Origin: Sphaerochaeta globosa str. Buddy
GTDB lineage: Bacteria; Spirochaetota; Spirochaetia; Sphaerochaetales; Sphaerochaetaceae
Direction: 5' to 3'
DNA: 64,000 nt
Assembly (NCBI RefSeq): GCF_000190435.1
Contig: NC_015152.1
Location: 502,458-566,457, forward strand
Positions 36,544 to 53,441 of the stretch are shown piece after piece. The notes beneath the pieces were generated by a model that saw only the letters and a program-made list of their open reading frames with translations, did no database searches and had not been told where the DNA came from. The position numbers and the translations under genes were made by a program. The first letter of the stretch is position 1. Every line of letters begins with the position of its first letter.

Positions 36544-37320
36544 TCAGGCTTCCACTCCCCAGATTTCCAGCTGGGTAAGGGCCGGGAAGGGGGAAGGGTC
36601 ATCCTCAGCTTTCTTTAGGTCATGGAGGGTGATGCTTGTCACTACTTTTGCCTTGATCGGAAAGCGTTGGGGAAGCTCCTCCTTCTTCAGCGGCAATCTA
36701 TAGGTCTCTCCCTCGTTGTCGGTTATTGAAGCCTGGGTCCACCAGCTGTCATGCGGCCAGTCGGCACGCAGGGTCAGCCGTATTTCATCCATGCGAACCG
36801 GTCTGCCGAAATCAAGACGAAGCTCAGCCTTGGGGTCGCGGTTTATCCCCCAGCTTTCAAAAGGATACTCCCCGTGGCTGTGGTTGGCGAAGTTCCCATC
36901 GATGGCATTGCGTGCAGCAAACACCATTTCCCCGCGTGTTTCCACATTGGCTTTTGCATGAGGGAACAGGCCAATGGTGTGGTGATGGTCGTAGGGGTTG
37001 AGGGCAAGGTTTCTGCGTCCGGGTTGCTCCACTTTGGAAAGGGTGAGCAGGTGCATGCTACCCATGAAAGCTTGGGCAGGATAGCAGGTACGAAGTGCAG
37101 GCAGCAATGGGATGGCATACCGGGCTTCTTGCTGCAGGTAGACTATATGGGCTCCCAGGGCTTCATCCAGCTGGACCTGATAGAGGCCGCTTTGTCTGAC
37201 GTGGATGACGATCTGGTCTCCCTCGTTGTACGGGGATGGGTGCACTAAGGCAACTCCATACCCACTCTCTACGCTACGACGGATAACGGCCTCATCCTTG
37301 TCCAGAATTACAATGTGCAT
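36544..37320 (-). CDS. Uncharacterised protein with C-terminal galactose-binding-like domain
   Basis: 258 residues, no signal peptide. The N-terminal 90 residues look beta-rich (IVIHVRQSGLYQVQLD, EARYAIPLL). The C-terminal half has the pattern of a discoidin/F5-8 jelly roll: NAIDGNFANHSHGEYPFESWG, then AELRLDFGRPVRMDEIRLTLRA, VTSITLHDL and LTQLEIWG. These folds bind sugars; no catalytic residues stand out. SD GGAGGAAG precedes ATG 37320. It lies tail to tail with the Gfo/Idh gene, 4 nt apart, so it likely belongs to the same sugar locus. Function unknown. Confidence 0.65.
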   Translation of the reverse strand: MHIVILDKDEAVIRRSVESGYGVALVHPSPYNEGDQIVIHVRQSGLYQVQLDEALGAHIVYLQQEARYAIPLLPALRTCYPAQAFMGSMHLLTLSKVEQPGRRNLALNPYDHHHTIGLFPHAKANVETRGEMVFAARNAIDGNFANHSHGEYPFESWGINRDPKAELRLDFGRPVRMDEIRLTLRADWPHDSWWTQASITDNEGETYRLPLKKEELPQRFPIKAKVVTSITLHDLKKAEDDPSPFPALTQLEIWGVEA

Positions 37321-37362
37321 CTGCTTCCTCCTACGTGCGTACTATAGCATATGCATACTGAC

Positions 37363-37391
37363 TTGACAGCAGGCTTTTGTTCGTCCATGGT
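37363..37391 (+). promoter_or_regulatory. Promoter giving a leaderless start for the metallohydrolase gene
   Basis: TTGACA (37363-37368), 17 nt, CATGGT (37386-37391, 3/6). +1 falls on the A of ATG 37398. Confidence 0.5.
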
Positions 37392-37397
37392 TATGGT

Positions 37398-38081
37398 ATG
37401 AATTGTACATATTTAGGTCATAGCACCTTTTTGCTCGAAACAGAAGAAGTGTTGCTCCTTTTCGATTACACCGGAGGGCCGCTGAACCTCCCCGATGGAA
37501 AGAAGAGCTTGCTGGTGTTTGCCAGCCACCGCCATGGGGACCACTTCAGTGATGCCATTTTCTCACTGGCACAAAGGGAAGGGAAAACGGTGTTCATTCT
37601 CTCCTCCGATATTGCCACCCACCTTGTACCGGCACATGTGCAGGTTCGCTGGATGGGACCGTACGAGGAGCTAACTATAGAGAATGTGGCACTCAGAACG
37701 CTGAAGTCTACCGATGAGGGTGTTGCTTTTGTCCTGCAGGTGGGGGAAAAGACCCTCTACTATGCAGGGGACTTGAACCACTGGCACTGGGAGGGTGAAA
37801 GCGAGGCGTATAACAAGCAGATGCAGCATGATTACCACACCGAGCTCAGACTGCTTCCTTCCAAGCTCGACCTTGCCTTTGTTCCGGTGGATCCAAGACT
37901 TGGCCGGTTCTATAGCCTTGGGGCAAAAGATTTGGCAACAAGGGTCACGGTGAAAACCCTCGTTCCGATGCATTTCTGGAAGGATAGCTCAGTGTGTGCA
38001 AAGCTTGCCAAGGAACTTGACCTTTTGGTTGGAGAGGTTGTATTGCTTACAAACGATATCACTACGTGGAGGATTCAATGA
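37398..38081 (+). CDS. Metallo-beta-lactamase-fold hydrolase
   Basis: 227 residues. The metal motif SHRHGDH (HxHxDH) is near residue 45, followed by YYAGDLNHWH and MHFWKD for the remaining ligands. It resembles the UlaG/YtkL-type cytoplasmic metallohydrolases; the substrate is unknown. No SD before ATG 37398; an in-frame upstream codon at 37377 lies in the promoter and is rejected. Overlaps the glyoxalase gene by 4 bp. Confidence 0.8.
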   Translation: MNCTYLGHSTFLLETEEVLLLFDYTGGPLNLPDGKKSLLVFASHRHGDHFSDAIFSLAQREGKTVFILSSDIATHLVPAHVQVRWMGPYEELTIENVALRTLKSTDEGVAFVLQVGEKTLYYAGDLNHWHWEGESEAYNKQMQHDYHTELRLLPSKLDLAFVPVDPRLGRFYSLGAKDLATRVTVKTLVPMHFWKDSSVCAKLAKELDLLVGEVVLLTNDITTWRIQ

Positions 38082-38449
38082 AGTTTAGCTTTGTTCATAA
38101 TAATTTCAATGTTACCGATCTGGATACATCGCTTGCTTTCTATAAAGAGGCTTTGGGCTTGGTCGAAGTGAGGCGTAAGATTGCTACCGATGGTTCCTTC
38201 ATTCTCGTTTTCCTTGGCGATGGGGTTTCCAAGCATCAGTTGGAGCTGACTTGGCTGAGGAACTGGGAGAAAGGCACGTATAATCTTGGCGATAATGAGT
38301 TCCACTTGGCCTTCGATGTTGATGATATGGATAGCGCTCGGGCAAAGCATCGGGAAATGGGATGCATCTGCTACGAGAACATCAATATGGGCATCTATTT
38401 CATCGTAGACCCAGATGGTTACTGGTTGGAGATTGTTCCCAAGAAGTAA
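38078..38449 (+). CDS. Glyoxalase I-like protein (VOC superfamily)
   Basis: 123 residues with two beta-alpha-beta-beta-beta halves: HNNFNVTDLDTSLAFYKEAL, QLELTWLRN, FHLAFDVDDMDSA and FIVDPDGYWLEIVP. The His/Glu metal ligands of lactoylglutathione lyase are at the expected places, so it may detoxify methylglyoxal, though the thiol partner is unknown. ATG 38078 overlaps the preceding stop (ATGA) and has GGAGG upstream. Confidence 0.82.
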   Translation: MKFSFVHNNFNVTDLDTSLAFYKEALGLVEVRRKIATDGSFILVFLGDGVSKHQLELTWLRNWEKGTYNLGDNEFHLAFDVDDMDSARAKHREMGCICYENINMGIYFIVDPDGYWLEIVPKK

Positions 38450-38450
38450 G

Positions 38451-38472
38451 CAAGGGACCTTTGCGTCCCTTG
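38451..38472 (+). other. Stem-loop after the glyoxalase gene
   Basis: CAAGGGAC-N6-GTCCCTTG, perfect 8-bp stem two bases after the stop codon, without a U tract. Possibly a weak terminator. Confidence 0.5.
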
Positions 38473-38537
38473 AGCTTCCTTGGTGAAAGTTCTATGCTTG
38501 GCCTCGATTCATATGCATGTGTGTGGGGGTAGGTGGG

Positions 38538-40166
38538 ATGCGTAAAGCTAATAATCTTAAACAAGCTTCATTTCTTACAGACTTGAAGCGTGAGTTCTCT
38601 TCATATTCGGCGGCCTCGTTTTCCAAGGACCTGCTGGCGGGTTTGACTGTCACTGCAGTTGCCCTGCCGCTGGCTCTTGCATTCGGGGTGAGTTCCGGTC
38701 TCGATGCAGCCAGCGGTCTGATTACTGCAATTCTGGCAGGTCTCATTATCGGGGCCTTGGGCGGAGCTTCCTTTCAGATTTCCGGACCAACCGGAGCCAT
38801 GGCTGCCATTCTGGTCAGCTTGGTTGTTCGTCATGGTACCGAAGGTGTCTTCATTGCAGGATTCTTGAGCGGGCTCATCCTGTTGGCAGCAGCGTATCTG
38901 AAAGTCGGTGCCTTGGTTTCCTATATCCCCAGCCCGGTTGTTACCGGCTTTACCAGCGGTATTGCCGTCATTATTGCGTTAGGGCAGATAGATAATTTCT
39001 TTGGTACTGCCAGCAGTGGTGAGGGAGCCCTTGCAAAACTGATTTCCTATACTTCATTGGGATTCCCCATCGATCTTGCTACCATGGCTTATGGTTTGTT
39101 TGTCGTTCTGCTCATGGTTCTCTGGCCCAAGAAGTGGAATGCACGATTCCCGGCAAGTCTTTTGGGTATTATCATCACCTTGGGTGTGCAGATGTTCCTG
39201 AATCTTTCGGTGAAGGAAGTAGGGATGATTCCCCGTTCCTTGATGGGAGAGAACAGGCTTCATATTTTTGAGCTTCCGATTAGAGAGCTGGCACAGTATA
39301 TATCCCCGGCAATTTCCATTGCAGCCCTTGGTATGGTTGAGAGTTTGCTGTGCGGCAGTTCGGCTGGAAAAATGAAGGGGGAGAAGCTGAATGCAACCCG
39401 TGAATTGTATGCCCAGGGCATCGGCAATGTCATCATTCCCTTTTTCGGAGGTATTCCTGCAACAGCAGCCATCGCCCGTACATCGGTGGCGATAAAGAGC
39501 GGGCAACAGACTCGCATAACCGGTATCATTCATGCTATCGGACTGCTGGCCTCCATGTTCCTGCTTTCTCCGTACATGAGCAGGATTCCTCTGGCTTCCT
39601 TGGCCGGGGTTCTCATGGTTACCGCCTGGAGGATGAATGAGTGGCACTCCATCCGCCAGATATTCTCCAAGAAGATCAAGACTTCGATGGCCCAATTCCT
39701 TATTACCATGGTGGCAACGGTCGTATTTGACCTGACCATCGCCATTCTCATCGGTCTGATTTTCTCCATGGTGATGTTCATCATCCGCAGTCACCACATT
39801 TCTATAGAGATTGATCCTGTCTCGGCAGAGCTCGGTACGTACGATGCAACGACAAAGGTCGTCTATGTCGATGGCTCACTGTTCTTCGGCAGTCAGGAAC
39901 AGTTGACAAAAACCGTGGAGAGCTTGCTTTCAGAGGGTGTGGGTCGCATTATCTTCAGCCTCAGAGGGGTAGCTACCATTGATCACAGTTCCATCAATGA
40001 GTTTGTGGAGATAGTGCATATGTGTAGGAAACAATCGGTGGATGTACTGTTTTGCGGTTTGCAACCTTCGGTGCAGTCGCTGATGAAGCGCCTGGATTTC
40101 TATGATCTTGTAGGTCAGGACAAATTCTTTTCCTCAGCGGTGACTGCCTTGGAGTCGCTTAGGTAA
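38538..40166 (+). CDS. SulP-family anion transporter with STAS domain
   Basis: 542 residues. About eleven to twelve membrane helices with the SulP signature region LLAGLTVTAVALPLALAFGV and QISGPTGAMAAILVSLV, then a cytoplasmic STAS domain from about 440 (VVYVDGSLFFGSQEQL, GVATIDHSSINEF). SulP proteins carry sulfate, bicarbonate or dicarboxylates; the substrate cannot be read off. ATG 38538 is chosen for the G-rich AGGTGGG just upstream. The 3' end overlaps the convergent AraC gene by 8 bp. Confidence 0.88.
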   Translation: MRKANNLKQASFLTDLKREFSSYSAASFSKDLLAGLTVTAVALPLALAFGVSSGLDAASGLITAILAGLIIGALGGASFQISGPTGAMAAILVSLVVRHGTEGVFIAGFLSGLILLAAAYLKVGALVSYIPSPVVTGFTSGIAVIIALGQIDNFFGTASSGEGALAKLISYTSLGFPIDLATMAYGLFVVLLMVLWPKKWNARFPASLLGIIITLGVQMFLNLSVKEVGMIPRSLMGENRLHIFELPIRELAQYISPAISIAALGMVESLLCGSSAGKMKGEKLNATRELYAQGIGNVIIPFFGGIPATAAIARTSVAIKSGQQTRITGIIHAIGLLASMFLLSPYMSRIPLASLAGVLMVTAWRMNEWHSIRQIFSKKIKTSMAQFLITMVATVVFDLTIAILIGLIFSMVMFIIRSHHISIEIDPVSAELGTYDATTKVVYVDGSLFFGSQEQLTKTVESLLSEGVGRIIFSLRGVATIDHSSINEFVEIVHMCRKQSVDVLFCGLQPSVQSLMKRLDFYDLVGQDKFFSSAVTALESLR

Positions 40167-41022
40167 AACGGCTGGTAAATATCCGCTGGTACTGTTTGGG
40201 GCTCATTGCCATGACCTTGCGGAATTGGCGGGAAAAGTAATTGGGGTCCTTGAAGCCGCAAGCTTCGCTGACTTGTCCCATCGAGAGCCCTCTCTCCTGG
40301 ATGAGCGAGCAAGCATACGCGATACGTTTATGGATGTGGAACTCAATCGGCGAAAGCCCGGTACTCTGCTTGAAACAACGATTGAGCGTGCTGGTGCTCA
40401 TATTTGCAATAATCACAAGGTCCTCGGTAGTGAGGGCCTTGTCCAAGTTTCCATCCATGTAAGAGATGACTTCCCAAAGCCTGCGGGCGTTTTGGTTGGT
40501 TTCCCGGGGTATCTGATCGTAAATGCGCGAGATTTGGACAAGCAGTTCAACCAGATACGCGTAGGCGAGGGTTTTGGAGCCCGAGCCGAAGCTTTGGTCG
40601 TCTGCTTCCTTTTCCATGAGCTGGACCAAGGGAATGAGCTCGGCGATCTGGGAAGGGGAGAGGGTGAGTCCCTCGATGTGTTCGGATTGCATGAAAATGG
40701 CACAGAACCCCGGCAGTTCGGTTAAATCCAAGGCATGGCGGGTTATGAGGTTCCTTCCATACAGAATATTGTACAACACGAGGTTTTCCACATCCTTGTA
40801 CCCATGTTCGACACCGGGCGGAATGAAGAGTACCGAACCTTCTCGCAGCGGCATCTGTTCATCGGCCGTAAAGTTGATCCCTCTTCCGCTGATAACGATA
40901 ACCAATTCATGAAACTCATGGCTATGAAGCCGGTACGGTAGCTCGGGGTCGCGCTTGATTACCTTCAGTTGCATAGTTGGCTCGTAGAAGAACGAATTTT
41001 CGGTAAGGATGGTTTCACTCAT
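40159..41022 (-). CDS. AraC-family regulator with cupin sensor domain (RhaR/RhaS type)
   Basis: 287 residues. N-terminal cupin (about 15-100: LPYRLHSHEFHELVIVISG, then VLFIPPGVEHGYKDVEN), C-terminal double HTH (about 185-285: TTEDLVIIANMSTSTLNRC and SMGQVSEACGFKDPNYFSRQ). It senses a sugar or related ligand. ATG 41022 is chosen because TTGACA-N17-AACCAT places transcription start on that base; ATG 41040 lies inside the promoter spacer. Possible targets are the sugar genes on either side. Confidence 0.85.
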   Translation of the reverse strand: MSETILTENSFFYEPTMQLKVIKRDPELPYRLHSHEFHELVIVISGRGINFTADEQMPLREGSVLFIPPGVEHGYKDVENLVLYNILYGRNLITRHALDLTELPGFCAIFMQSEHIEGLTLSPSQIAELIPLVQLMEKEADDQSFGSGSKTLAYAYLVELLVQISRIYDQIPRETNQNARRLWEVISYMDGNLDKALTTEDLVIIANMSTSTLNRCFKQSTGLSPIEFHIHKRIAYACSLIQERGLSMGQVSEACGFKDPNYFSRQFRKVMAMSPKQYQRIFTSRFT

Positions 41023-41028
41023 GCCGAA

Positions 41029-41057
41029 ATGGTTGTGCATCTTACCGTGTTTGTCAA
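41029..41057 (-). promoter_or_regulatory. Promoter giving a leaderless start for the AraC gene
   Basis: Minus strand TTGACA (41052-41057), 17 nt, AACCAT (41029-41034, 3/6 match); +1 is the A of ATG 41022. Confidence 0.5.
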
Positions 41058-41121
41058 GAACGCCTAGCAGACAGTTGTTCAGTTTGCTTTTGTGTGACAC
41101 ACTGGTTCTAGAGGTATTGCC

Positions 41122-41799
41122 ATGGATTTGTTGCTTGATACTGCTGATCTTGCAGAGGTGGAACATGCGCTTCACTACTATCCCATCAAGGGAGTCACCA
41201 CCAATCCAACGATGCTCTCCCGATTGGCCCAAACGCATGTGGTTTCGCATCTGAAAGCAATTCGAAGTGTAATCGGGGATGGTCGGGACTTGCATGTGCA
41301 GCTGATGGCACGTGATGAGAAAACCATGATCAGGGAAGCCCACCACCTCGTTTCTCAGTTGGGGGAGCGGACATTCATTGCTGTTCCGGTAACAGAGGTC
41401 GGTCTTTCGGTGATAAAGGAATTGTCCCAAGAAGGCCTTCTCATTACCGCTTCCACCGTCTTTTCCACAATGCAGGGCATTCTAGCCATGCTCAGCGGGG
41501 CACGCTATGTGGCTGTCTTCTATGATCGGATGCTGAACCTGGACATCGATGCTAGCAGGGTCATCAAGGAGTTGGCAGGGCTTTTGTGGACCAATACCAG
41601 TTCCACCCAGGTTCTGGCAGCAAGCTTTCGCAACATCGCTGAAGTGACCAACGCCTATGCAAGCGGGGCGGGCTGCTGCACAGTGAAACCTGAGCTTCTC
41701 TCCACCGGCCTTGCCATGCCTTCCATCAAAAAAGCGGTGCAGGACTTTGCCGATGACTGGCAGAAGGTGTACGGGGATAAGACGCTGTTGGATTTGTAG
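41122..41799 (+). CDS. Fructose-6-phosphate aldolase/transaldolase-like protein lacking the Schiff-base lysine
   Basis: 225 residues, the length of FsaA/TalC-type aldolases. The frame of the family is well kept: LLLDTADLAEVEHAL with Asp6, KGVTTNPTML, VPVTEVGLSVIKEL and TASTVFSTMQGILAMLSGA. The catalytic lysine, which lies in VK(V/I)PVT in active enzymes, is replaced: FIAVPVT here, with Ala87 in the lysine position. It therefore should not work as a Schiff-base aldolase unless another lysine takes over. SD AGAGG before ATG 41122. Convergent with the GNAT gene, 6 nt apart. Confidence 0.8.
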   Translation: MDLLLDTADLAEVEHALHYYPIKGVTTNPTMLSRLAQTHVVSHLKAIRSVIGDGRDLHVQLMARDEKTMIREAHHLVSQLGERTFIAVPVTEVGLSVIKELSQEGLLITASTVFSTMQGILAMLSGARYVAVFYDRMLNLDIDASRVIKELAGLLWTNTSSTQVLAASFRNIAEVTNAYASGAGCCTVKPELLSTGLAMPSIKKAVQDFADDWQKVYGDKTLLDL

Positions 41800-41805
41800 A
41801 CAGGC

Positions 41806-42594
41806 TTAGAATTTCATCATACCCCAACGTCCGATGGTCTCGAACCCCAGCCGGTGATAGATTGCACCAGCAAGTGGATTGCTGTAGAACAAGCAGAGAA
41901 AACTCAGACCATCGGTGAAGCATTGGGAGCACAGTCTGCTCATTACCTGTGAGGCATACCCCCGTTTGCGATAGGAAGGGTGGGTTGCCACCCCGATAAT
42001 CATGGCTCCGCTTTGGGTTTTCGCCGCAATATTTGCCATACAGACGAGCTGCCCATTATTGAAGATCCCAAACCCAAGGCAACCTTTTTCATACGTTTCC
42101 TTTGTTTGCTTGAGTTTTTCCGACTCGTGTTCAATGTAGGGTTTTGCGAACTCTTCTATCTGTTTATAGAGGTCAATAATTGCCTGGGCATCGCTCGGAC
42201 CAAGTTTGACAATGTCCCGGTCGGCAGAAGCTTCCATCTTAAATGTTTGTTTATTGAGTCTGCATAGGTACGTCCCTTGTACCTTACTGGCAGGAAAATA
42301 CTGCTGGATATCGAGCAAGAGGCTCTCTTTGGCGCTGAGGCAGAGCATGGTTTGCTTCTTAAGGAACTCAACAACCGGCTGCAAGTCAGGTTGGGCCTTG
42401 TTACTGGTGATCAGGAAGTTCTCATAGAATCGCAAGACAAGGCAATCCCAATCATCGCCGAAGGCATACAGATTCACCACATCGCTCTCGAGTCCATAGA
42501 GCTCTATATCTCCTTCGATGAAGAGATTGACTTCCTTCTCCCCAGCGATGTATTGCAGCACCGCCGGAATATCCTGGTTTGTTAAAACTTGCAT
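41806..42594 (-). CDS. GNAT-family N-acetyltransferase
   Basis: 262 residues. The C-terminal half is a GNAT domain: acetyl-CoA-binding motif A is GVATHPSYRKRGYASQVMS (R-x-x-G-x-A form), followed by FLCLFYSNPLAGAIYHRLGF. The N-terminal half (about 1-130) is a less conserved domain. Acceptor unknown. ATG 42594 has no SD; TATAGT ends 6 nt upstream, which predicts a leaderless transcript. Confidence 0.82.
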   Translation of the reverse strand: MQVLTNQDIPAVLQYIAGEKEVNLFIEGDIELYGLESDVVNLYAFGDDWDCLVLRFYENFLITSNKAQPDLQPVVEFLKKQTMLCLSAKESLLLDIQQYFPASKVQGTYLCRLNKQTFKMEASADRDIVKLGPSDAQAIIDLYKQIEEFAKPYIEHESEKLKQTKETYEKGCLGFGIFNNGQLVCMANIAAKTQSGAMIIGVATHPSYRKRGYASQVMSRLCSQCFTDGLSFLCLFYSNPLAGAIYHRLGFETIGRWGMMKF

Positions 42595-42600
42595 GTCGCT

Positions 42601-42629
42601 ACTATACGACAGCAAGTAATCAAAGGCAA
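42601..42629 (-). promoter_or_regulatory. Promoter giving a leaderless start for the GNAT gene
   Basis: Minus strand TTGCCT (42624-42629), 17 nt, TATAGT (42601-42606, 5/6); +1 is the A of ATG 42594. Confidence 0.6.
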
Positions 42630-42653
42630 TTGTCTGGTATTCGTGGGATTTAT

Positions 42654-42682
42654 TTGACCAATCGATTTTTACCCCCTATGAT
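42654..42682 (+). promoter_or_regulatory. Promoter of oadB-oadG
   Basis: TTGACC (42654-42659), exactly 17 nt, TATGAT (42677-42682); start about 42689, leader about 69 nt with GGAGG before oadB. Confidence 0.75.
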
Positions 42683-42757
42683 GAACCCTGTTGGGGGAGC
42701 TTCATTGCCATCGTGCGAAGTCAACTTCTTCCCCTATTTCTTTTCTGGAGGTTCACT

Positions 42758-43894
42758 ATGGACTTCTTGTTGGACGGACTGCTCGCCACTACCTGGAAGC
42801 AACTGGTAATGTTTGGTGTTGGCAGCCTTCTCATCTATCTTGCAATTGCAAAGAAACTCGAACCCTCACTGTTGCTTCCCATGGGATTCGGAGCGATTCT
42901 GGTCAATCTGCCGTTCAGCGGTGCTGTAACGCAGATGATGACAGGCATTGGTGAAGTCCCAGGCATTCTTGACTGGCTCTTCCACTTTGGCATCGAGGCT
43001 GCAGAGGCTATGCCGCTGTTGCTGTTCATTGGCATTGGAGCGATGATTGACTTTGGCCCGCTGTTGGCCAACCCCAAGCTCATTCTCTTCGGTGCTGCTG
43101 CCCAGTGGGGTATTTTTGCCACGATCAGCTTGGCAACCCTCATGGGATTCAGCCTGGTCGATGCTGCTTCCATCGGTATTATCGGGGCTGCCGACGGACC
43201 GACGTCCATTCTGGTCTCCCAAGTATTGGGTAGTACCTACATTGGACCCATCGCCATTGCCGCTTACTCGTATATGGCATTGGTTCCAATCATCCAACCC
43301 TTTGCGATCAAATTGGTGACAACCAAGAAAGAGCGGATGATCAGAATGCCGTACAATCCACGTTCGGTCTCAAAGCGTTCCAAAATTCTCTTTCCTATTA
43401 TTGTTACCATCGTTTCAGGCTATGTTGCTCCGGCTTCCGTTTCGCTGGTCGGCATGCTGATGTTCGGCAACCTCATCCGTGAGTGCACGGTATTGGATAC
43501 TTTGTCCACTGCGGCCCAGACGGTACTGGTAAACCTGGTAACCCTGCTGCTTGGTATCACTATTGCATCCACCATGAAGGCTGATGCCTTCGTAACCGTG
43601 CAAACGGTCATGATCATGGGCTTGGGATTGTTGGCTTTCGTGTTCGATACCATCGCAGGTGTTCTGTTTGCCAAGGTCCTGAACCTGTTTGTAAAACAGA
43701 AGGTAAACCCGATGATAGGGGCTGCCGGAATTTCAGCATTCCCGATGTCAGCCCGCGTCATCCAGAGAATGGGACAGCAGGCTGATCCTCAGAATCACCT
43801 GTTGATGCACGCAGTCGGGGCGAACGTAGCCGGTCAGATCGCCTCGGTCATTGCCGGTGGTGTTATCCTGGGCTTGGTCCCAGGCCTATTGTAA
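42758..43894 (+). CDS. oadB: Sodium-translocating decarboxylase beta subunit
   Basis: 378 residues, hydrophobic, with the OadB/GcdB/MmdB hallmark GAADGPTSILVSQVLG containing the Asp needed for Na+ transport, and the C-terminal AGISAFPMSARVIQRMG and HAVGANVAGQI regions. This subunit decarboxylates carboxybiotin and pumps Na+ out. Strong SD GGAGG. The gene is followed by a short oadG, but no carboxyltransferase (alpha) or biotin-carrier gene lies nearby, so the complex must borrow them from elsewhere. Confidence 0.9.
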   Translation: MDFLLDGLLATTWKQLVMFGVGSLLIYLAIAKKLEPSLLLPMGFGAILVNLPFSGAVTQMMTGIGEVPGILDWLFHFGIEAAEAMPLLLFIGIGAMIDFGPLLANPKLILFGAAAQWGIFATISLATLMGFSLVDAASIGIIGAADGPTSILVSQVLGSTYIGPIAIAAYSYMALVPIIQPFAIKLVTTKKERMIRMPYNPRSVSKRSKILFPIIVTIVSGYVAPASVSLVGMLMFGNLIRECTVLDTLSTAAQTVLVNLVTLLLGITIASTMKADAFVTVQTVMIMGLGLLAFVFDTIAGVLFAKVLNLFVKQKVNPMIGAAGISAFPMSARVIQRMGQQADPQNHLLMHAVGANVAGQIASVIAGGVILGLVPGLL

Positions 43895-44142: not shown

Positions 44143-44197
44143 CATCCCCAACTTGTATGATAACCTATGAGTATCGAGACCAAGGGGGTTGGGGATG
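44143..44197 (+). promoter_or_regulatory. GntR leader: inverted repeat CATCCCCAAC / GTTGGGGATG and half-site
   Basis: Arms at 44143-44152 and 44188-44197 are perfectly complementary; the right arm contains the gntR start codon and part of its ribosome site. Between them lies TTGTATGATAAC (44153-44164), similar to the half-sites before tctC. TTGACA (44139-44144) and TATGAT (44156-44161) are both present but only 11 nt apart, so the exact promoter is unclear. Confidence 0.5.
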
Positions 44198-44902
44198 CCG
44201 GGACACAGTACCATGAAAATTGTCAAGTCGCAAAAAGTATCCGCCCAGGTCTACGATCAATTGCTTGAACGCATTAAGAACCACAAATGGGATGAGGGAA
44301 CCAAGCTTCCCTCCGAAAACGAGCTTCGCCTTGAAATGGGCGTGAGCCGTATCAGCATTCGAGAAGCCATGCAGAAGTTGACCGCCCTCGGAATAGTGGA
44401 AACACGCCAGGGAGAAGGGTCCTTCGTCAAGAAGGTCACCAGCGACAGCTATAGGGACATGATGCTTCCGATGTTCATGATCAACAAGAATTCGCTTGAG
44501 GAAATCCTCGAGTATCGTATGGTGATGGAGGTAGGGGCAACAGAAATTGCCGCAAATCGCATCACCGCTTCTGAGTTGGCTGAGTTGGAAGCCATCGTAG
44601 TGCGTATGGAACAGAATGATAACGATGTGAAGACCTTTTCACATGACGACATTCTTTTTCATATGGCCATCTCGAAGGCAACCAAGAATCAGATGTTGAT
44701 AAATGTTTCCTTGTTTATGCAGGACTTGCTTGCAGCAAGCATGGAATCCATTGTTACCCATTTGGGCATGAAGGACGGAAAATACTTTCACCGTCTTATC
44801 CTGGAAGAAATGAAAAAAGGGAACAGGGCAGGGGCGGTAGAAGCGATGCGAGAGCATGTAGCTAAGACTGTTGACCGGGTTTCTGAGCTCTCAGAGCTCT
44901 AG
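44195..44902 (+). CDS. GntR-family regulator with FCD domain, of the tct/catabolic operon
   Basis: 235 residues. Winged HTH at about 10-80 (LPSENELRLEMGVSRISIREA is its core, then VETRQGEGSFVKK as wing) and an FCD domain with histidines in DDILFHMAISKA and MREHVAKTVDR. Such regulators bind sugar acids or other carboxylates. ATG 44195 is preceded by AAGGGGG. It stands just upstream of tctC and shares a TTGTnTnAT half-site with that promoter, so it most likely controls the whole 45-53 kb operon. Confidence 0.88.
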   Translation: MPGHSTMKIVKSQKVSAQVYDQLLERIKNHKWDEGTKLPSENELRLEMGVSRISIREAMQKLTALGIVETRQGEGSFVKKVTSDSYRDMMLPMFMINKNSLEEILEYRMVMEVGATEIAANRITASELAELEAIVVRMEQNDNDVKTFSHDDILFHMAISKATKNQMLINVSLFMQDLLAASMESIVTHLGMKDGKYFHRLILEEMKKGNRAGAVEAMREHVAKTVDRVSELSEL

Positions 44903-44928
44903 GTACGATGTACAGATACTGTTAACTG

Positions 44929-44964
44929 TTGTCTTATAGCTAATTGCGATAACTCATAAGACAA
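44929..44964. promoter_or_regulatory. Operator candidate: TTGTCTTAT-N18-ATAAGACAA
   Basis: Perfect 9-bp inverted repeat between gntR and tctC. Each arm resembles TTGTATGAT in the gntR promoter, so it is a likely binding site for that GntR protein. The tctC -10/-35 cannot be assigned with confidence. Confidence 0.6.
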
Positions 44965-45026
44965 CTTACAACTGACTAATAATCTTATGGCTTGTGCCAT
45001 GGAATATAAAAAAGGAGATTTTTGTT

Positions 45027-46097
45027 ATGAAGAGAAACAAGATTCTGGTCGTATTGTGCATCCTGATGGTTGCCGCCTCTTTCCTGTTTGCCCAGGCAAC
45101 CGGTGAGACCGCCAACGTGAAAGTGTGGCCGAAAACCCAGCCGGTGGTGTATGTCGGATTCGGAGCCGGCGGTGGTACCGATACTGCTGTTCGCCCTGTC
45201 ATCGCAAAGATGGAAGAGTACCTTGGTGAAACCATCAACGTGGTAAATCAGGCTGGAGCTGCTTCTGCTGTTGCTGCAAATACGGTTATGTACACCAAAG
45301 CGCACGACGGTTATAGCATGTTTGCAACCGGTAGCGCCCCGATTTCCGGTTTCCGCGTAATGGGCACCAGTGAAACTTACTGGGCCGACTGGGCTTCCTT
45401 CCACCCCTACATGGGAGCAGCTGCCCTGGTCGTTCGCACCGATTCCAAAATCCAGACCTATGACGAAGCAATTGCCTACTTGAAGAGCAAGAAAGTCAAC
45501 TTCGCCATCAGCGGATTTGGTGTTGGTCCCCACGTTCTGTTCGAAGCTGTTCGTGATATCGCCGGTATCGCAGCACCCAACTACATGACCGCTGGTTCCT
45601 GCCGTCAGGCCGGTATCAACGTAATTGCTGGTGATGCAGAGATTTCCATGGCAACCTTCAGCTCGGTTATCGACTTTATCAAGGCTGGACAGCTCCGTGC
45701 TCTTGCTATTACTGATACCAAGGACTATACCGATTTCGGTCTGAATATTCCTTCTATCACCAAAGTGCAGAAGAATGCTGAGAACATCCCCTTGCTCAGT
45801 GAGACATGGCCGATTTTGATCCCCCGCGATGCTCCCAAGGCTGTTGTTGACAAGTTGACCGAAGCTTTCTACTGGGCCGTCAAGCAACCCACCATTGTTG
45901 ACTATGCAAAGAATCAGGGGCTCGTAATCGCTGGCTACGCCGGTGAAGATGCAGACAAGTTCCTTGCCATCCAGGAAGCTGGTTATGCTTGGACTCTGCA
46001 GGGCGTTGGCTCGACTACCGTGAGCCCGGAGAAACTTGGCATTCCCAAGCTTGCTGATTTCAACTGGGAAGTTGCAAAGCAGAAGATCAAGAAATAA
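45027..46097 (+). CDS. tctC: Tripartite tricarboxylate transporter binding protein TctC
   Basis: 356 residues with a signal peptide (MKRNKILVVLCILMVAASF, cleavage near FAQ). TctC/Bug family pattern: YVGFGAGGGTDTAVRPV with the first ligand loop, INVVNQAGAASAVAANTV, and GSCRQAGINVIAGD. Bug proteins bind small carboxylates. SD AAGGAG before ATG 45027. First gene of a nine-gene run with only one stem-loop break after it. Confidence 0.88.
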   Translation: MKRNKILVVLCILMVAASFLFAQATGETANVKVWPKTQPVVYVGFGAGGGTDTAVRPVIAKMEEYLGETINVVNQAGAASAVAANTVMYTKAHDGYSMFATGSAPISGFRVMGTSETYWADWASFHPYMGAAALVVRTDSKIQTYDEAIAYLKSKKVNFAISGFGVGPHVLFEAVRDIAGIAAPNYMTAGSCRQAGINVIAGDAEISMATFSSVIDFIKAGQLRALAITDTKDYTDFGLNIPSITKVQKNAENIPLLSETWPILIPRDAPKAVVDKLTEAFYWAVKQPTIVDYAKNQGLVIAGYAGEDADKFLAIQEAGYAWTLQGVGSTTVSPEKLGIPKLADFNWEVAKQKIKK

Positions 46098-46106
46098 GGA
46101 AGTGTT

Positions 46107-46132
46107 CGGGAGGTGGGGTTTCCCATCTCCCG
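46107..46132 (+). other. Stem-loop between tctC and tctB
   Basis: CGGGAGGTGGG-N4-CCCATCTCCCG, 11-bp stem with one G-T pair, followed by CTTTCT. Same position and similar GGGAG core as the stem-loops after the other binding-protein genes. Confidence 0.75.
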
Positions 46133-46153
46133 CTTTCTAGAAAGGGTAGTTGC

Positions 46154-46639
46154 ATGAGCCAGAAAATTAAAACGACAACGTCCGATCTCATCATGAGTGT
46201 CATACTCATTGTATTCGGAATCTATCTCATTATCGAAGCACTTGGGATGAAAGTGTTCAATACCTTCCTTGATGCACCGGGATTTTTCCCGTTGATCCTG
46301 GGATTCATCTTTATTGCATTCGGTCTCCTTATGCTCAATGGTGCTTTACGGGGTGGTAGTGTACAGGCCGCCAAGGCAACCTTTACCAAGGATAGTCTGA
46401 CAACGCTTTTTTTGAATAGCCAGACCAAGCGCGTAGTGATCCTCACGTTCTTCATGGTGGTGTATATTTATGGGCTTATTGGAAAGGTTCACTTTTCCAT
46501 TGCCACCTTCCTCTATCTGTTTGTGACCTTTTTTTATCTCAAATCCACGACGTTGGTGAAGAATATCATCATATCAGCAATCTCTGCATTGGTTATCGGT
46601 GCAGTCTTCCAGTACGTCTTTAAAATTCCTCTTCCTTAA
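46154..46639 (+). CDS. tctB: Tripartite tricarboxylate transporter small subunit TctB
   Basis: 161 residues with four membrane segments, starting MSQKIKTTTSDLIMSVILIV and with DAPGFFPLILGFIFIAFGL, the characteristic pxFFP stretch of TctB. Pairs with TctA. SD AAAGGG before ATG 46154. Confidence 0.85.
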   Translation: MSQKIKTTTSDLIMSVILIVFGIYLIIEALGMKVFNTFLDAPGFFPLILGFIFIAFGLLMLNGALRGGSVQAAKATFTKDSLTTLFLNSQTKRVVILTFFMVVYIYGLIGKVHFSIATFLYLFVTFFYLKSTTLVKNIIISAISALVIGAVFQYVFKIPLP

Positions 46640-46652
46640 GGTAGGAGAACTT

Positions 46653-48170
46653 ATGTTTGAAGCACTATCTTTGCAATTTGCCCTGTTCGGATCTGCAGCT
46701 GCGCAAGCGTTTGCGTTCCCCCAGGTATTTGTAACAATGATCGCCACGATAGCCGGGATTGTTGTCGGAGCTATTCCAGGGCTTACGGCAACAATGGCAC
46801 TCGCACTTCTGATCAACTTGACGTACTCCATGCAACTGCCGGTTGCCGTGGCCTTCCTCTTGGGAGTCTATGTCGGAGCCGTCATGGGTGGCTGTTACTC
46901 CGCCATCATGATCAACATTCCTGGAACACCCTCTGCAGCGGCGACTGCATTGGATGGATTCATCCTTGCCAAGCAAGGCCATGGCGGCCAAGCCATCGGC
47001 GTTGGTGTCATCGCTTCGTTTATTGGATCGTTGTTCTCCATCGTCATCCTTATTTTCCTCACTCCGTTTCTCTACAAGATTGCCTTGAAGTTCGGCCAGT
47101 GGGAATATTTCCTGATTTCTGTGTTTGGTATTATGATTTGTGGAAACCTTTCAACGCAAAGTACGCCGATCAAGGGGTGGATCGTCGGCTTCCTTGGCTT
47201 CTTTACTGCCATGATAGGCTTGGATGCAGTGTATGCATTCCCACGCTTTACCTATGGCAGCTACAGCCTGATGGGAGGTATCTCCCTCATTCCAGCCCTC
47301 ATAGGTGTATTCGGTATCTCTGAGATTCTCTCTGTGTTGCAGGAAGATATTCCTTACTCGATAGAAACTCAGCTCGGCAGGGTGCTCCCGACCAAGAATA
47401 TCGTCAAGGATATCGTGCATACTGCAGTACGTTCCGGCCTGATCGGCTGTGGCATCGGTGCCGTCCCTGGTGCTGGTGAAGATATTGCCGCTTGGGTCTC
47501 CTACGATGTCGGTAAGCGGCGAAGCAAGAAAGGCCATCTGTTCGGGAAGGGCTGTTATGAGGGATTGGCTTCGGCTGAAACGGCAAACAATGCTTGTGTC
47601 GGTGGTGCCATGATTCCTCTGCTTACGCTTGCCATTCCAGGCTCGCCACCGGCAGCCATGTTCCTCGCCGCCATTTGGTTGCACGGAATCAAGCCCGGTC
47701 CGATGCTGGCCTTGGAATCTCCTGATTTCCTCTACTTGACTGCAATAACCTTGACTATTGCCACTTTCTCGATGCTGGTATTCGGTCTTGCTTTGGTAAA
47801 GCCCATGGTTAAGATTTTGAAGATCAATCGTAAGATCCTCATGCCTATCATCGTGCCATTGACGGTCATTGGTGCCTATGCAGGCAATGTGAATAGCTTT
47901 GATATCGGTGTTATGTTTGTCTTTGGTATCCTGGGCTACATCCTGCGCAAGCTTAACTATCCCATGGCTCCCTTGGTGCTCGGCATCATTCTTGGACCTA
48001 CGGCAGACATCAGCTTCCGTCAGGCTCTGATGCAGGGACAGGGTTCGATCATCCCGCTTTTGGGACGACCGGTCGGTATCGTTCTTATGCTCGCCATCAT
48101 TTGGATTTTGTTTTCCGGCGTACGGAACAGTCGGGTAGCTAAGGACATGACCAGTCCAAGTGCTGGTTGA
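46653..48170 (+). CDS. tctA: Tripartite tricarboxylate transporter large subunit TctA
   Basis: 505 residues, about eleven to twelve membrane helices. TctA signatures: VVGAIPGLTATMALALL, YSAIMINIPGTPSAAATALDG, GAVPGAGEDIAAWVSYD and LTLAIPGSPPAAMFLAA; the two PGxxx loops form the substrate path. SD TAGGAG before ATG 46653. The next gene starts 14 nt on. Confidence 0.92.
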   Translation: MFEALSLQFALFGSAAAQAFAFPQVFVTMIATIAGIVVGAIPGLTATMALALLINLTYSMQLPVAVAFLLGVYVGAVMGGCYSAIMINIPGTPSAAATALDGFILAKQGHGGQAIGVGVIASFIGSLFSIVILIFLTPFLYKIALKFGQWEYFLISVFGIMICGNLSTQSTPIKGWIVGFLGFFTAMIGLDAVYAFPRFTYGSYSLMGGISLIPALIGVFGISEILSVLQEDIPYSIETQLGRVLPTKNIVKDIVHTAVRSGLIGCGIGAVPGAGEDIAAWVSYDVGKRRSKKGHLFGKGCYEGLASAETANNACVGGAMIPLLTLAIPGSPPAAMFLAAIWLHGIKPGPMLALESPDFLYLTAITLTIATFSMLVFGLALVKPMVKILKINRKILMPIIVPLTVIGAYAGNVNSFDIGVMFVFGILGYILRKLNYPMAPLVLGIILGPTADISFRQALMQGQGSIIPLLGRPVGIVLMLAIIWILFSGVRNSRVAKDMTSPSAG

Positions 48171-48184
48171 GAAGGAGAGCGGGT

Positions 48185-48937
48185 GTGAACGTACAAAATA
48201 AAGTCATCCTGGTCACCGGCGGAGCCGGTGGACTGGGAGCTGAAATGGTGGAACTTCTCTGCAGAAACGGGGCGAGGCTCTATATTCTGGACTTGGATGT
48301 GCAAAAGGGTGAAGCCTTGCAGGCTCAGATGAGACAACTGTCGTATAGTGCGACGTTCCTCAAGCTGGACCTTACCAGTGAGCAAGCCTGGCAGGAAGTC
48401 ATTGCCCAAATCGTAACGGAAGCAGGAAGAATCGACGTCCTGGTGAACAATGCAGGCATCAACATCCGAAAGCCCATCGAAGAGATGAACTTCTCTGAGT
48501 TCAATACCATGATGTCAGTCAATGTGGGGAGCGTGTTCTTGGGAACGAAATACGTGCTGCCGGTAATGCGGAAGCAGGGCGGCGGGGCTATCATCAATAC
48601 TTCCTCGGTCTGCGGCCTCATTGGTCATCGCTATACGCCGGAGGCTTACACCACCAGCAAGGGTGCGGTGACGCTGCTGACCAAAGCAATCGCCAGCCGG
48701 TACGGACACGAAAACATTCGCTGCAACTCGATCCACCCGAGCACCGTCGACACCCCGTTGGTGCAACAGATGTTCAAGGATCCGATCAAGAAGCAGCAGC
48801 GCCTTGATGAGGTGCCGCTGGGACGGCTTGCAACAGCGAGCGATGTCGCCAATGCAGTATTGTATCTGGCCAGCGAAGAAGCCTCCTTCATCAACGGGAT
48901 CGCCCTGCCGGTGGACGGCGGAGTCACCTGTTGCTAA
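48185..48937 (+). CDS. Short-chain dehydrogenase/reductase, first of two in the tct operon
   Basis: 250 residues. NAD(P) loop TGGAGGLGAE, NNAGIN, Ser in NTSSVCGL, Tyr-x3-Lys in AYTTSKGAV, and NGIALPVDGGVTCC. The substrate is probably a sugar alcohol, sugar acid or related hydroxy compound brought in by TctABC. Start is GTG 48185 with AAGGAG 7 nt upstream, overlapping no gene. Co-transcribed with transketolase genes 26 nt on. Confidence 0.87.
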   Translation: MNVQNKVILVTGGAGGLGAEMVELLCRNGARLYILDLDVQKGEALQAQMRQLSYSATFLKLDLTSEQAWQEVIAQIVTEAGRIDVLVNNAGINIRKPIEEMNFSEFNTMMSVNVGSVFLGTKYVLPVMRKQGGGAIINTSSVCGLIGHRYTPEAYTTSKGAVTLLTKAIASRYGHENIRCNSIHPSTVDTPLVQQMFKDPIKKQQRLDEVPLGRLATASDVANAVLYLASEEASFINGIALPVDGGVTCC

Positions 48938-48963
48938 GGCAATGAGAGGAGTAGGAGAAAATC

Positions 48964-49812
48964 ATGGAATATTCACAAGAAATCGTAAAGGAACTGAAGC
49001 GCAAAGCGATTCAGGTACGTGCCAATATCCTGGAGATGATACCTCCGGGAAAAGTGGGGCATCTTGGTGGCAGCAGCTCGATAGCGGATGTGATGGCGGC
49101 CCTGTACTTCCACACAATGAAAGTCAGTAGGACCAATCCAAAGGATCCGGGCCGCGATCGTCTAATCATGAGCAAGGGCCATGCGGTGCTGGTCCAATAC
49201 GCCTGCCTTGCAGAGCTGGGGTACTTCGACCGCAGTGAACTGGGTAAGGTGAAAACCTTCAACGGTATGCTGCAGGGACACCCGGACATGGACCGAACCC
49301 CCGGAATCGAGGCCGTTACCGGCTCGCTCGGTCAAGGTTTGTCCGTATCACTGGGCATGGCACTCGGCCTCAGGTTGGACAAGAGCGAAAACCGCGTCTA
49401 TGCAATCCTGGGAGACGGAGAACTTGCCGAGGGGCAGATCTGGGAGGCCGTGATGGCCGCTTCCGTCTATAAGGCGAGCAATCTGTGCGCCATCATCGAC
49501 TGGAACGGGGTGCAGGCAACCAGCACCACCGCCGAAATCTTCCCCATCGCCAATCTGGTGGAGAAGTGGAAGTCCTTTGGCTGGAACGTCATCGAGATCG
49601 ACGGCCATGACATGGTCCAGATCCTGAAAGCCCTCGATGCAGCAAAAGCCTACACCGACGGCCCGACGGCAATCCTTGCCCACACGATCAAGGGAAAATG
49701 CTTCCCCTTCGCAGAAGGAAAGGCGAAATACCACAATGCTGCCATGAACGATGAAGAGTACAAGATTGCATGGCAGTGCATCGAGACCATGAAGCGGGAG
49801 GTAGAGGCATGA
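48964..49812 (+). CDS. Transketolase, N-terminal (TPP-binding) subunit
   Basis: 282 residues: the separately encoded first half of a split transketolase. Seen: GKVGHLGGSSSIADVMAALY, MSKGHAVLVQYACLAELGYF, VTGSLGQGLSVSLGMALG, and the thiamine diphosphate motif GDGELAEGQIWEA ending in IDWN. Most split transketolases have GHPGGS; here it is GHLGGS. Within this operon it likely moves a two-carbon ketol unit from a breakdown intermediate rather than serving the pentose phosphate pathway. Confidence 0.88.
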   Translation: MEYSQEIVKELKRKAIQVRANILEMIPPGKVGHLGGSSSIADVMAALYFHTMKVSRTNPKDPGRDRLIMSKGHAVLVQYACLAELGYFDRSELGKVKTFNGMLQGHPDMDRTPGIEAVTGSLGQGLSVSLGMALGLRLDKSENRVYAILGDGELAEGQIWEAVMAASVYKASNLCAIIDWNGVQATSTTAEIFPIANLVEKWKSFGWNVIEIDGHDMVQILKALDAAKAYTDGPTAILAHTIKGKCFPFAEGKAKYHNAAMNDEEYKIAWQCIETMKREVEA

Positions 49813-50747
49813 GAACGAGTGACAGCTTGAGGAAGACCTACGGGGAGACTTTGGTCGAACTGGGAAAGGATAACAAGAATATCGTATTGATGGAGGCCGA
49901 CCTGGGCAATTCGACGATGAGCAGTCTGTTTGCCGCGGCATACCCCGAGCGGTATTTCCAGATGGGCATCGCCGAGCAGAACATGGCAAGCACGGCAGCT
50001 GGGCTTTCGTTGACGGGCAAGATCCCGTTCATCAACTCATTCGCAGTGTTCGCCTCCGGTCGTGCCTACGACCAGATCCGCTCCTCTATCACCATCGCAA
50101 ACCTGAATGTAAAAATCTGCGGCTCGAGTGCGGGCCTCTCGGACTACGGCGACGGCAAGACCCACCAGAGCATCGACGATATCGCCCTGATGCAGGTGCT
50201 TCCTCACATGACCGTGCTCTCCCCCTGTGATGCAGTGGAGACCGAGCAGATGGTCAAGGCGATGGTTGCAAGCAAGGGACCTGTGTACATCCGTATCAAT
50301 CGCAACGACCTGCCGATCGTGACCAATCCCAATGCCGAGTATCACATCGGTAAGATGACGCAAATCGTTGAGGGAAAAGACGTGGTGGTGTTCGCCACCG
50401 GTATCATGGTGCAGCAGTCGATGGCGGCTGCCGAACTTCTGAAGAAGGAAGGGATCAGCGTCAGGGTAGTCAATGTCAGCACGATCAAGCCGCTGGATAA
50501 GGATGTTCTTTTAGGCTACTGCGACGGTGTGAAAGCTGTGGTGACGGCTGAGGAGCACAGTATTATCGGCGGACTTGGAAGTACCGTTGCAAGCGCCCTG
50601 TCAAAGAGCCGCCTGCCGCTGGAGATTCTTGGAGTCGGTGACTGCTACGGTACGAGTGCCGAGAACTATGACATCCTGCTCAAGCACTACGGCTTGGAGC
50701 CCAAGGATGTGGCGCAGAAAGTCAGAGACGTTCTGGCCGTCAAGTAA
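49809..50747 (+). CDS. Transketolase, C-terminal subunit
   Basis: 312 residues: pyrimidine-binding and C-terminal domains of the split enzyme. Key stretches: MEADLGNSTMSSLF, RYFQMGIAEQNMASTAAGLS with the TPP-activating Glu, DGKTHQSIDDIALM and TAEEHSIIGGLGS. Overlaps the N-terminal subunit gene by 4 bp (ATGA), as expected for a 1:1 complex. Confidence 0.9.
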   Translation: MRTSDSLRKTYGETLVELGKDNKNIVLMEADLGNSTMSSLFAAAYPERYFQMGIAEQNMASTAAGLSLTGKIPFINSFAVFASGRAYDQIRSSITIANLNVKICGSSAGLSDYGDGKTHQSIDDIALMQVLPHMTVLSPCDAVETEQMVKAMVASKGPVYIRINRNDLPIVTNPNAEYHIGKMTQIVEGKDVVVFATGIMVQQSMAAAELLKKEGISVRVVNVSTIKPLDKDVLLGYCDGVKAVVTAEEHSIIGGLGSTVASALSKSRLPLEILGVGDCYGTSAENYDILLKHYGLEPKDVAQKVRDVLAVK

Positions 50748-50758
50748 GGAGAAACACT

Positions 50759-51643
50759 ATGAAGATTGGATTCATCGGACTTGGCATCATGGGCAAGCCC
50801 ATGGCGAAGAACCTGCTGAAGGCAGGTCATAGTATTGTTTGTTATGATGTGAATGCGGCCAATGTGGCCGATGTGGTTGCAGCCGGAGCGACAGCGGGCA
50901 GGAGTTCTGCCGACGTGGCGGGCCAGGTGCCCCTTCTGATCACGATGCTGCCCAACAGCCCGCACGTAAAGAGCGTGGTCATGGGAGAGGGCGGGGTGCT
51001 CGAGGGGGCAAGAGAGGGCCTGATCCTCATCGACATGTCCTCCATCGCCCCCCTTGCAAGCCAGGAGGTCGAGAAGGCCTGTGCACAGAAAAAGGTGCGC
51101 ATGCTCGACGCCCCGGTAAGCGGCGGCGAGCCGAAGGCCATCGACGGCAGCCTTGCGATCATGGTCGGGGGGGAGAAGGGCCTCTTCGAGGAAGTGAGGG
51201 ACATCCTGCTGGTCATGGGGGCCAGTGCGGTGCACTGCGGGCCGATCGGGGCGGGCAACACGACCAAGCTGGCCAACCAGATCATCGTGGCGCTGAACAT
51301 AGCGGCGGTGGCGGAGGCCTTCACGCTGGTGCGCAAGGCCGGGGTGGACCCGCACCTTGTGTTCGATGCGATCAAGGGAGGTCTTGCGGGCAGCACGGTG
51401 ATGAACGCCAAGGCCCCGATGATGATGGACTCTAACTTCAAGCCGGGCTTCAAGATCGACCTGCACATCAAGGACCTCGCCAATGCATTGGACACCGGCC
51501 ACGGGGTGGGATCCCCGCTCCCGCTGACCTCACTTGCGCGCGAGATGATGGAGACGCTGCACAGCGACGGGTTCGGAGGCGACGACCACAGCGCCCTTGC
51601 CCGCTACTACGCCAAGCTGTCCGGCACGAAGATCGGACAGTAA
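50759..51643 (+). CDS. garR: 2-hydroxy-3-oxopropionate (tartronate semialdehyde) reductase-like
   Basis: 294 residues of the 3-hydroxyisobutyrate dehydrogenase family. FIGLGIMGKPMA (NAD loop), DAPVSGGEPKAIDG, the catalytic Lys in GAGNTTKLANQ, and FKPGFKIDLHIKDLANALD with DHSAL near the end match GarR/GlxR closely by eye. It would reduce tartronate semialdehyde to glycerate. GC content is clearly higher than in neighbours (65% and 73% in two 60-bp rows counted by hand, against about 52% in the next gene), a hint of separate origin. SD AAGGAG before ATG 50759. Confidence 0.85.
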   Translation: MKIGFIGLGIMGKPMAKNLLKAGHSIVCYDVNAANVADVVAAGATAGRSSADVAGQVPLLITMLPNSPHVKSVVMGEGGVLEGAREGLILIDMSSIAPLASQEVEKACAQKKVRMLDAPVSGGEPKAIDGSLAIMVGGEKGLFEEVRDILLVMGASAVHCGPIGAGNTTKLANQIIVALNIAAVAEAFTLVRKAGVDPHLVFDAIKGGLAGSTVMNAKAPMMMDSNFKPGFKIDLHIKDLANALDTGHGVGSPLPLTSLAREMMETLHSDGFGGDDHSALARYYAKLSGTKIGQ

Positions 51644-51652
51644 GGAGCCTTG

Positions 51653-52675: not shown

Positions 52676-52676
52676 C

Positions 52677-53441
52677 ATGAAACGAAATCCATTTGACTTG
52701 ACGGGTAAAAATGCAGTGGTGACCGGCTCCTATCAGGGGCTGGGATGGGGTATGGCAGAGGGCCTTGCCCAGGCAGGGGCTTTTGTCATCCTCGTTGATG
52801 TAAACCCTGAGGTATCCCAAAAAGCTGGACAGCTGCGAGCACAAGGACTGCTTGCAGAAGGCCTGTGTGCAGATTTGCTGGAGAGGGCAGACCGTACAAG
52901 GCTTAAGGCAGCCATTGAAGAGAGGCTTTCTGGAAAGCTCGATATCATGGTCAATAATGCAGGAATTCAAATCCGTCACCCGGTTCTCGAATTTCCCATG
53001 GAAGATTGGGACAAGGTCATTGAGCTCAACCTTACCTCTGTATTCGATCTTGCCCAATGGGCGGCACGTCTGATGGTCGCCCTCGGCAAGGGCAAAATCA
53101 TCAATACCGCCTCAGTCAACTCGCTAGCTGCCGGAGTCTATACAGTAGCATATTGTGCCGCAAAGGGTGGAATCATGCAGTTGACCAAAACCATGTCCAA
53201 TGAGCTCTCTTCTCTGGGCGTCAACGTCAATTGCATTGCTCCCGGCTACATGGCTACGCCGATCAATACAGCGTTGGTCGAAGACGAGAAGCGGTTTGCA
53301 GAATTAAGTCAGCGTATCCCCGCCAAACGATGGGGGCAACCCCAGGATATGGCAGGGGCTGCAATATACCTTGCCAGTGATGCCTCAGACTATGTATGCG
53401 GCATCATGCTTCCTGTTGACGGGGGGTATTTGGGAAGGTAG
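52677..53441 (+). CDS. Short-chain dehydrogenase (KduD/gluconate dehydrogenase type)
   Basis: 254 residues. TGSYQGLGWGMA (cofactor loop, SYQ in place of the usual S-R-G), NNAGIQIRHP, Ser in NTASVNSLAAG, Tyr-x3-Lys in AYCAAKGGI, CIAPGYMATPIN, VCGIMLPVDGGYLG. The overall pattern resembles 2-deoxy-D-gluconate 3-dehydrogenase and gluconate 5-dehydrogenase. One base after the transaldolase stop; last gene of the operon. Confidence 0.85.
   Translation: MKRNPFDLTGKNAVVTGSYQGLGWGMAEGLAQAGAFVILVDVNPEVSQKAGQLRAQGLLAEGLCADLLERADRTRLKAAIEERLSGKLDIMVNNAGIQIRHPVLEFPMEDWDKVIELNLTSVFDLAQWAARLMVALGKGKIINTASVNSLAAGVYTVAYCAAKGGIMQLTKTMSNELSSLGVNVNCIAPGYMATPINTALVEDEKRFAELSQRIPAKRWGQPQDMAGAAIYLASDASDYVCGIMLPVDGGYLGR

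Follow-up and report, generated by a model that had tools for sequence, protein, structure and literature searches.

The window analysed here, a stretch of 64,000 nucleotides of the genome of Sphaerochaeta globosa str. Buddy, contains on its forward strand an intact open reading frame of 225 residues, which starts with the ATG at 41122 and ends with a TAG whose last base is 41799 (Table 1). The product reaches 125.2 bits with the Pfam model TAL_FSA, for which 27 is the cut-off, and 239.5 bits with the NCBIfam equivalog model NF009299 for fructose-6-phosphate aldolase (FSA; cut-off 214). With TIGR00875 it scores 145.6 bits and the FSA paralogue L011 158.4, both below the cut-off of 245.95. The genome (3.32 Mb, one contig) encodes four TAL_FSA proteins, namely the protein studied here, L011, which is encoded elsewhere in the genome and is 56% identical to it, a transaldolase within the window and L014. 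The last three keep the Schiff-base lysine; for the window transaldolase, of which the preliminary description had already said so, it is found in the translation as VVIKLPAT.

Table 1. Features of the lysine-less FSA-like gene and its upstream region (positions in the window)
Feature	Position	Strand	Basis
Divergent AraC/RhaS-like regulator, start codon at 41022 inferred	40159..41022	-	neighbour in 16/17 carrier genomes
TTTGTCAA block, invariant in 16/16 aligned upstream regions	41051..41058	.	alignment
Probable Shine-Dalgarno sequence AGAGG, 7 bases before ATG	41110..41114	+	sequence
Lysine-less FSA-like protein (candidate pseudo-aldolase), 225 aa	41122..41799	+	Pfam TAL_FSA, NF009299
Codon 87 GCT (Ala), Schiff-base lysine position, strand beta-4	41380..41382	+	sequence, alignment, model
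Codon 133 TTC (Phe), Tyr131 proton-shuttle position, end of beta-6	41518..41520	+	sequence, alignment, model; Tyr131 role from the accessible part of PMC13259622
Codon 189 AAA (Lys), end of beta-8; Lys/Arg in 15/15 distinct orthologues	41686..41688	+	sequence, alignment, model

According to the accessible part of PMC13259622, the covalent catalyst of FSA is Lys85, which is called essential, and activity is abolished when it is mutated; Tyr131 serves as the main proton shuttle, and the donor pocket is lined by Asp6, Asn28, Gln59, Thr109 and Ala129. We matched the E. coli numbering to that of the window protein by alignment. Residue 87 of the latter, within the motif FIAVPVT, stands in gapless register with the FIKIPVT of close relatives and is alanine in place of the Schiff-base lysine of strand 4, and residue 133 is phenylalanine where E. 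coli FSA has the proton shuttle Tyr131. Among 15 distinct orthologues position 87 is Ala in 13 and Ser in two, and position 133 is Phe in all of them. A sequencing error is excluded, because the codon GCT is three base changes away from any lysine codon and the same loss is found in the orthologues of 16 other genomes. The absence of the lysine, as reported in the preliminary description, is thereby borne out, whereas the accompanying statement that all FSA landmarks are kept holds for Asp6, GVTTNP and PVTxxGL and fails for the tyrosine. Invariant among the 15 orthologues are Asp6, Thr26, Asn28, Gln60, Thr109, Ala131, Arg136 and Ser168, so the donor pocket residues D6, N28, Q60 and A131 are present in every one. 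The equivalent of E. coli Thr109 is position 111 of the window protein, which varies (Thr in 10, Ser in 5). Seven of eight pocket positions are invariant (hypergeometric p 0.018), a modest signal, given that conservation is usual in the barrel strands, where 22 of 39 sites are invariant as well. As judged from the alignment, the Lys/Tyr catalytic dyad is shown to be wholly lost and the donor and phosphate pocket residues to be retained; a loss of class I chemistry at residue 87 is supported as well.

When the 15 lysine-less rows are compared with 19 rows bearing the lysine, the two groups share no residue at 12 of the 225 positions (2, 31, 33, 87, 114, 115, 133, 157, 159, 160, 184 and 189), and alignment and model place positions 87, 114, 115, 133 and 189 at or near the barrel mouth. 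Position 189 is basic throughout, being Lys in 5 and Arg in 10 of the distinct orthologues, and is one of nine positions at which Lys/Arg is invariant. One could imagine a class I aldolase with a relocated Schiff-base lysine, for example Lys189, whose place after strand 8 is in the region of the active-site mouth of the barrel. The preliminary description had raised the question of another lysine at the catalytic position; we searched the 15 distinct orthologues for an invariant lysine and found none, and because of this a relocated Schiff base appears unlikely. For Lys189 the proposal was rejected and is very improbable, since Arg takes its place in 10 of the 15, Lys189 coexists with Lys87 in other homologues, and the tyrosine is lost too.

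The AlphaFold2 model of the lysine-less protein, calculated with a 36-row alignment, has a pLDDT of 94.7 and a pTM of 0.87; an earlier model with 11 rows had a pLDDT of 65.1. Ala87 lies in the strand 84–89, Phe133 ends the strand 129–133 and Lys189 follows the strand 185–188. Comparison with known structures gave a Z score of 31.4 for 9v4c (1.7 Å, 220 residues) and of 31.1 for 3r8r, and a BFVD search returned mostly general barrels. The predicted structure shows the FSA fold. Both E. coli FSA (1l6w; Z 30.2 over 220 residues) and the engineered FSA variant Tyr131Phe (4rxf; Z 30.4 over 220 residues), which likewise has Phe at this place, are about 30% identical to the window protein and differ from it in keeping Lys85. 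The engineered Lys86Ala transaldolase of Thermoplasma (3s1w; Z 29.7 over 221 residues) carries the same substitution, there man-made; it has Glu60 instead of Gln60, whereas in the lysine-less protein the loss of the lysine is natural and conserved. Classical transaldolases have Glu where FSA has Gln59, and Phe where it has Tyr131. The lysine-less protein has Phe133 but Gln60, and Ala87 for the Schiff-base lysine, and does not follow the transaldolase pattern either. With the PRK12656-type FSAs (NF009299), represented by the Lys paralogue, it has in common the fold, the length and the pocket and phosphate residues, and it is unlike them in missing the Schiff-base lysine and the Tyr131 equivalent and in having Lys/Arg189 instead of Pro. 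The product should be filed as an FSA-fold protein and not as an FSA enzyme, which exposes a naming error, as the curated equivalog model NF009299 labels it fructose-6-phosphate aldolase.

FSA matches were found in 55 of the 139 genomes of the family Sphaerochaetaceae that were searched, two short fragments and one 27% partial match being left out of the reading. Of the 26 genomes of the genus Sphaerochaeta, 17 carry the lysine-less form and 19 the Lys form; both are present in 16 genomes, the lysine-less form alone in one, the Lys form alone in three and neither in six. The lysine-less copy of G097, with Ser87 and Arg189, is a fragment at the end of a contig. We surveyed position 87 in an alignment of 141 rows, taken from genomes of Spirochaetota and from 13 plasmid records; near-copies are counted, a part of the search matches was fetched, and L013, L014 and L159 were left out (no tblastn match to P0001). 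The residue is Lys in 114 rows, Ala in 19, Ser in two, Arg in five and Glu in one. Lys87 is kept in all 13 plasmid FSAs and in all 80 viral-contig homologues, a viral-contig search with one Lys protein as query found no relative, and outside the bacterial family every sequence read has the lysine. In the sequences read, Ala/Ser87 is absent outside a single clade (see below), so a wide presence of alanine in active members, which would have spoken against the preliminary description, is not seen.

The two copies co-occur in the genus genomes (Fisher p 0.0022, kinship uncorrected), with 16 of the 17 carriers of the lysine-less gene also having the Lys copy. Together with the 56% identity of the two proteins and the decameric state of FSA given in the accessible part of PMC13259622, this would fit an inactive subunit that joins and tunes the decamer of the Lys-bearing paralogue, for which a dead deoxyhypusine synthase paralogue in trypanosomes offers a precedent (PMC3663545, accessible part). 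We nevertheless regard such a partnership as unlikely: G111, a draft genome in 410 contigs, carries the lysine-less copy only, the Arg87 forms of G061, G069, G073, G083 and G084 are the sole FSA match of their genomes, and the lysine-less and Lys paralogue genes are unlinked.

In a tree of 129 of the 141 rows, copies having been removed, the Ala/Ser87 form makes up one clade of 15 distinct rows (support 100/99), and because this clade is nested among the Lys copies of the genus it is, on the evidence of the tree, the product of a duplication inside the genus. Labelling the whole tree by residue 87 gives four changes, of which at least three are forced by well supported branches. One origin for all lysine losses was rejected, as a single group of all 21 lysine-less rows yields a p-AU of 3.1e-06 in a topology test for which the group was chosen after seeing the tree and in which long branches are present. 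Going by the tree, three further lineages of the same family have lost the lysine separately and have Arg or Glu at position 87.

Among these, L119 has Glu87 and adjoins a rhamnulokinase-like FGGY kinase. L122 and L124 have Arg87 and also lack Asp6, Asn28 and Ser168, so that loss of the pocket can follow loss of the lysine, which is not so in the Ala/Ser87 clade. L130–L132 have Arg87, and the next gene downstream of each is that of a mannose-6-phosphate isomerase (the family search covered L163 alone), a setting that is also found for Lys87 relatives such as L179 and L180, as judged by position and a similar protein start. All these homologues are alike in the loss at position 87 and differ from the Ala/Ser87 clade in their separate origins, in having kept the tyrosine or lost more of the pocket, and in their gene neighbours. 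Position 189 holds Lys/Arg, Pro, Asn and Lys in the four origins, the last being common to the Lys87 sister group of the fourth origin, and as the origins differ in this way Lys/Arg189 was rejected as a general partner of lysine loss. The preliminary description was right about Lys87 and overlooked the loss of the tyrosine, the Lys paralogue, the gain of Lys/Arg189 and the repeated losses within the family.

Further observations concern the same homologues. An Arg87 homologue stands directly upstream of the mannose-6-phosphate isomerase gene in L163 (7983–9865; the only one searched), L164 (6784–8666) and L165 (6780–8696), and it is the sole FSA match in each of their genomes. In L160 (7995–11656) the Glu87 homologue adjoins the rhamnulokinase-like kinase, a DeoR-type regulator (sequence start only) and a class II aldolase-like protein, and its genome also carries a Lys87 copy. 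L068–L070, L126 and L129 are FSA homologues that combine Lys87 with Lys189.

Pairwise dN/dS values (NG86) of the lysine-less genes range from 0.017 to 0.085 for close pairs and rise to 0.25 for distant pairs with high dS; for the Lys paralogue they are 0–0.126. By these sequence comparisons the lysine-less gene is shown to be under purifying selection. Over the same 105 genome pairs the mean identity is 76.1% for the lysine-less protein vs 82.8% for the Lys copy, the lysine-less protein being less identical in 95 pairs and more identical in 8, and it thus evolves somewhat faster. This divergence could speak for a decaying gene or a sequence error, which is scarcely credible and is refuted by the orthologues, as their reading frames are intact and of equal length, dN/dS is low and the loss is common to 17 genomes. 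The description of the gene as intact, with a good Shine-Dalgarno sequence and not decaying, agrees with these data.

The AraC/RhaS-like regulator (111.6 bits with the RhaS model, cut-off 288) is divergent from the lysine-less gene in 16 of 17 genomes; in G097 the locus is broken by contig ends. The TTTGTCAA block is probably the regulator's own element, because it is also present upstream of AraC in L177, where the FSA-like gene is absent (of L175–L177, the upstream region of L177 was read). In G093, G094 and G112 AraC, the SulP/VOC/metallo-hydrolase block and OadB are kept and the FSA-like gene is absent, and therefore the gene was either inserted into or lost from an older block. The proposal of AraC as a dedicated regulator is weakened by these three genomes and by TTTGTCAA in L177.

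The old genus block of metallo-hydrolase, VOC protein, SulP permease, AraC and OadB-like membrane protein, in which the FSA-like gene may be present or absent, occupies 36544–43894 of the window and is also seen in L175–L177. It is followed at 44189–53441 by genes for a GntR/FCD regulator, a TctCBA transporter, two SDRs, a split transketolase, a beta-hydroxyacid dehydrogenase and the distant Lys-bearing transaldolase, likely a catabolic cluster for an acidic or sugar-acid substrate. In L045 (10675–16390) and L051 (3282–9001), and similarly in L050, L052–L055 and L058, a convergent cluster lies beside the lysine-less gene, with a glycerol-kinase-like FGGY kinase, a split transketolase and a DeoR regulator (the family searches covered just L045 and L051); one protein of the L051 cluster matches the sulfoquinovose isomerase SftI weakly (94 bits, cut-off 700). 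This cluster, a candidate for a sulfosugar or glycerol pathway, is convergent where present and absent at the window locus.

Our best reading, which we hold tentatively, is that the protein is a naturally occurring pseudo-aldolase with non-covalent binding of a sugar phosphate. At an early point in one lineage of Sphaerochaeta, a duplicated PRK12656-type FSA would have exchanged Lys87 for Ala/Ser and Tyr133 for Phe, and the copy without the dyad would have been retained. As no enamine could be formed, FSA activity would be absent. A phosphorylated ketose or aldose may be held non-covalently by Asp6/Asn28/Gln60 together with Arg136/Ser168/Arg170, and Lys/Arg189, placed next to strand 1 where strand 8 ends, may replace the lost positive charge near Asp6 or bind a further anionic group; we infer the nearness of residue 189 to Asp6 from the barrel order in the model. 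Most likely the protein would serve sugar use as a sugar-phosphate sensor, buffer or regulator. That AraC is a conserved neighbour does not prove a regulatory role, because the same block lacks the gene in G093, G094 and G112, and the kept Asp6 and hydrogen-bonded pocket equally suit another enzyme.

Such an enzyme, with Asp6 as base, water held by Gln60/Ser111 and Lys/Arg189 as electrophile, could catalyse enolisation, isomerisation, epimerisation or hydrolysis of a sugar phosphate without a covalent intermediate. That acid/base and hydrogen-bonding residues are kept, that a new invariant basic residue was gained in 15 of 15 orthologues, that selection equals that on the Lys paralogue for close pairs and that so few positions separate the two groups, several of them at or near the barrel mouth, would agree with this. 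However, the proton-shuttle tyrosine is also lost, no pathway neighbour fixes a substrate, and a non-systematic reading brought out no metal site or further catalytic group, so that we consider a live enzyme possible and somewhat doubtful.

Searches of the open-licence literature brought up no paper that deals with a lysine-less FSA or with the FSA of Sphaerochaeta, which is no proof of absence. Rather unlikely, though worth stating, is a reading in which one clade has remade the FSA barrel as a sensor or as an enzyme that works non-covalently, the dyad being removed and the basic residue moving to strand 8 from strand 4, with new sugar-phosphate chemistry or signalling as the outcome, and in which the family repeatedly recruits FSA in this way, as in the four separate lysine losses. 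FSA is a widely used biocatalyst, and a natural and conserved paralogue without the dyad would mean that its pocket has another use. The pseudo-aldolase, if it is one, may serve as a test case for the step from class I aldolase to pseudoenzyme, for which the same cell supplies a control in its active paralogue.
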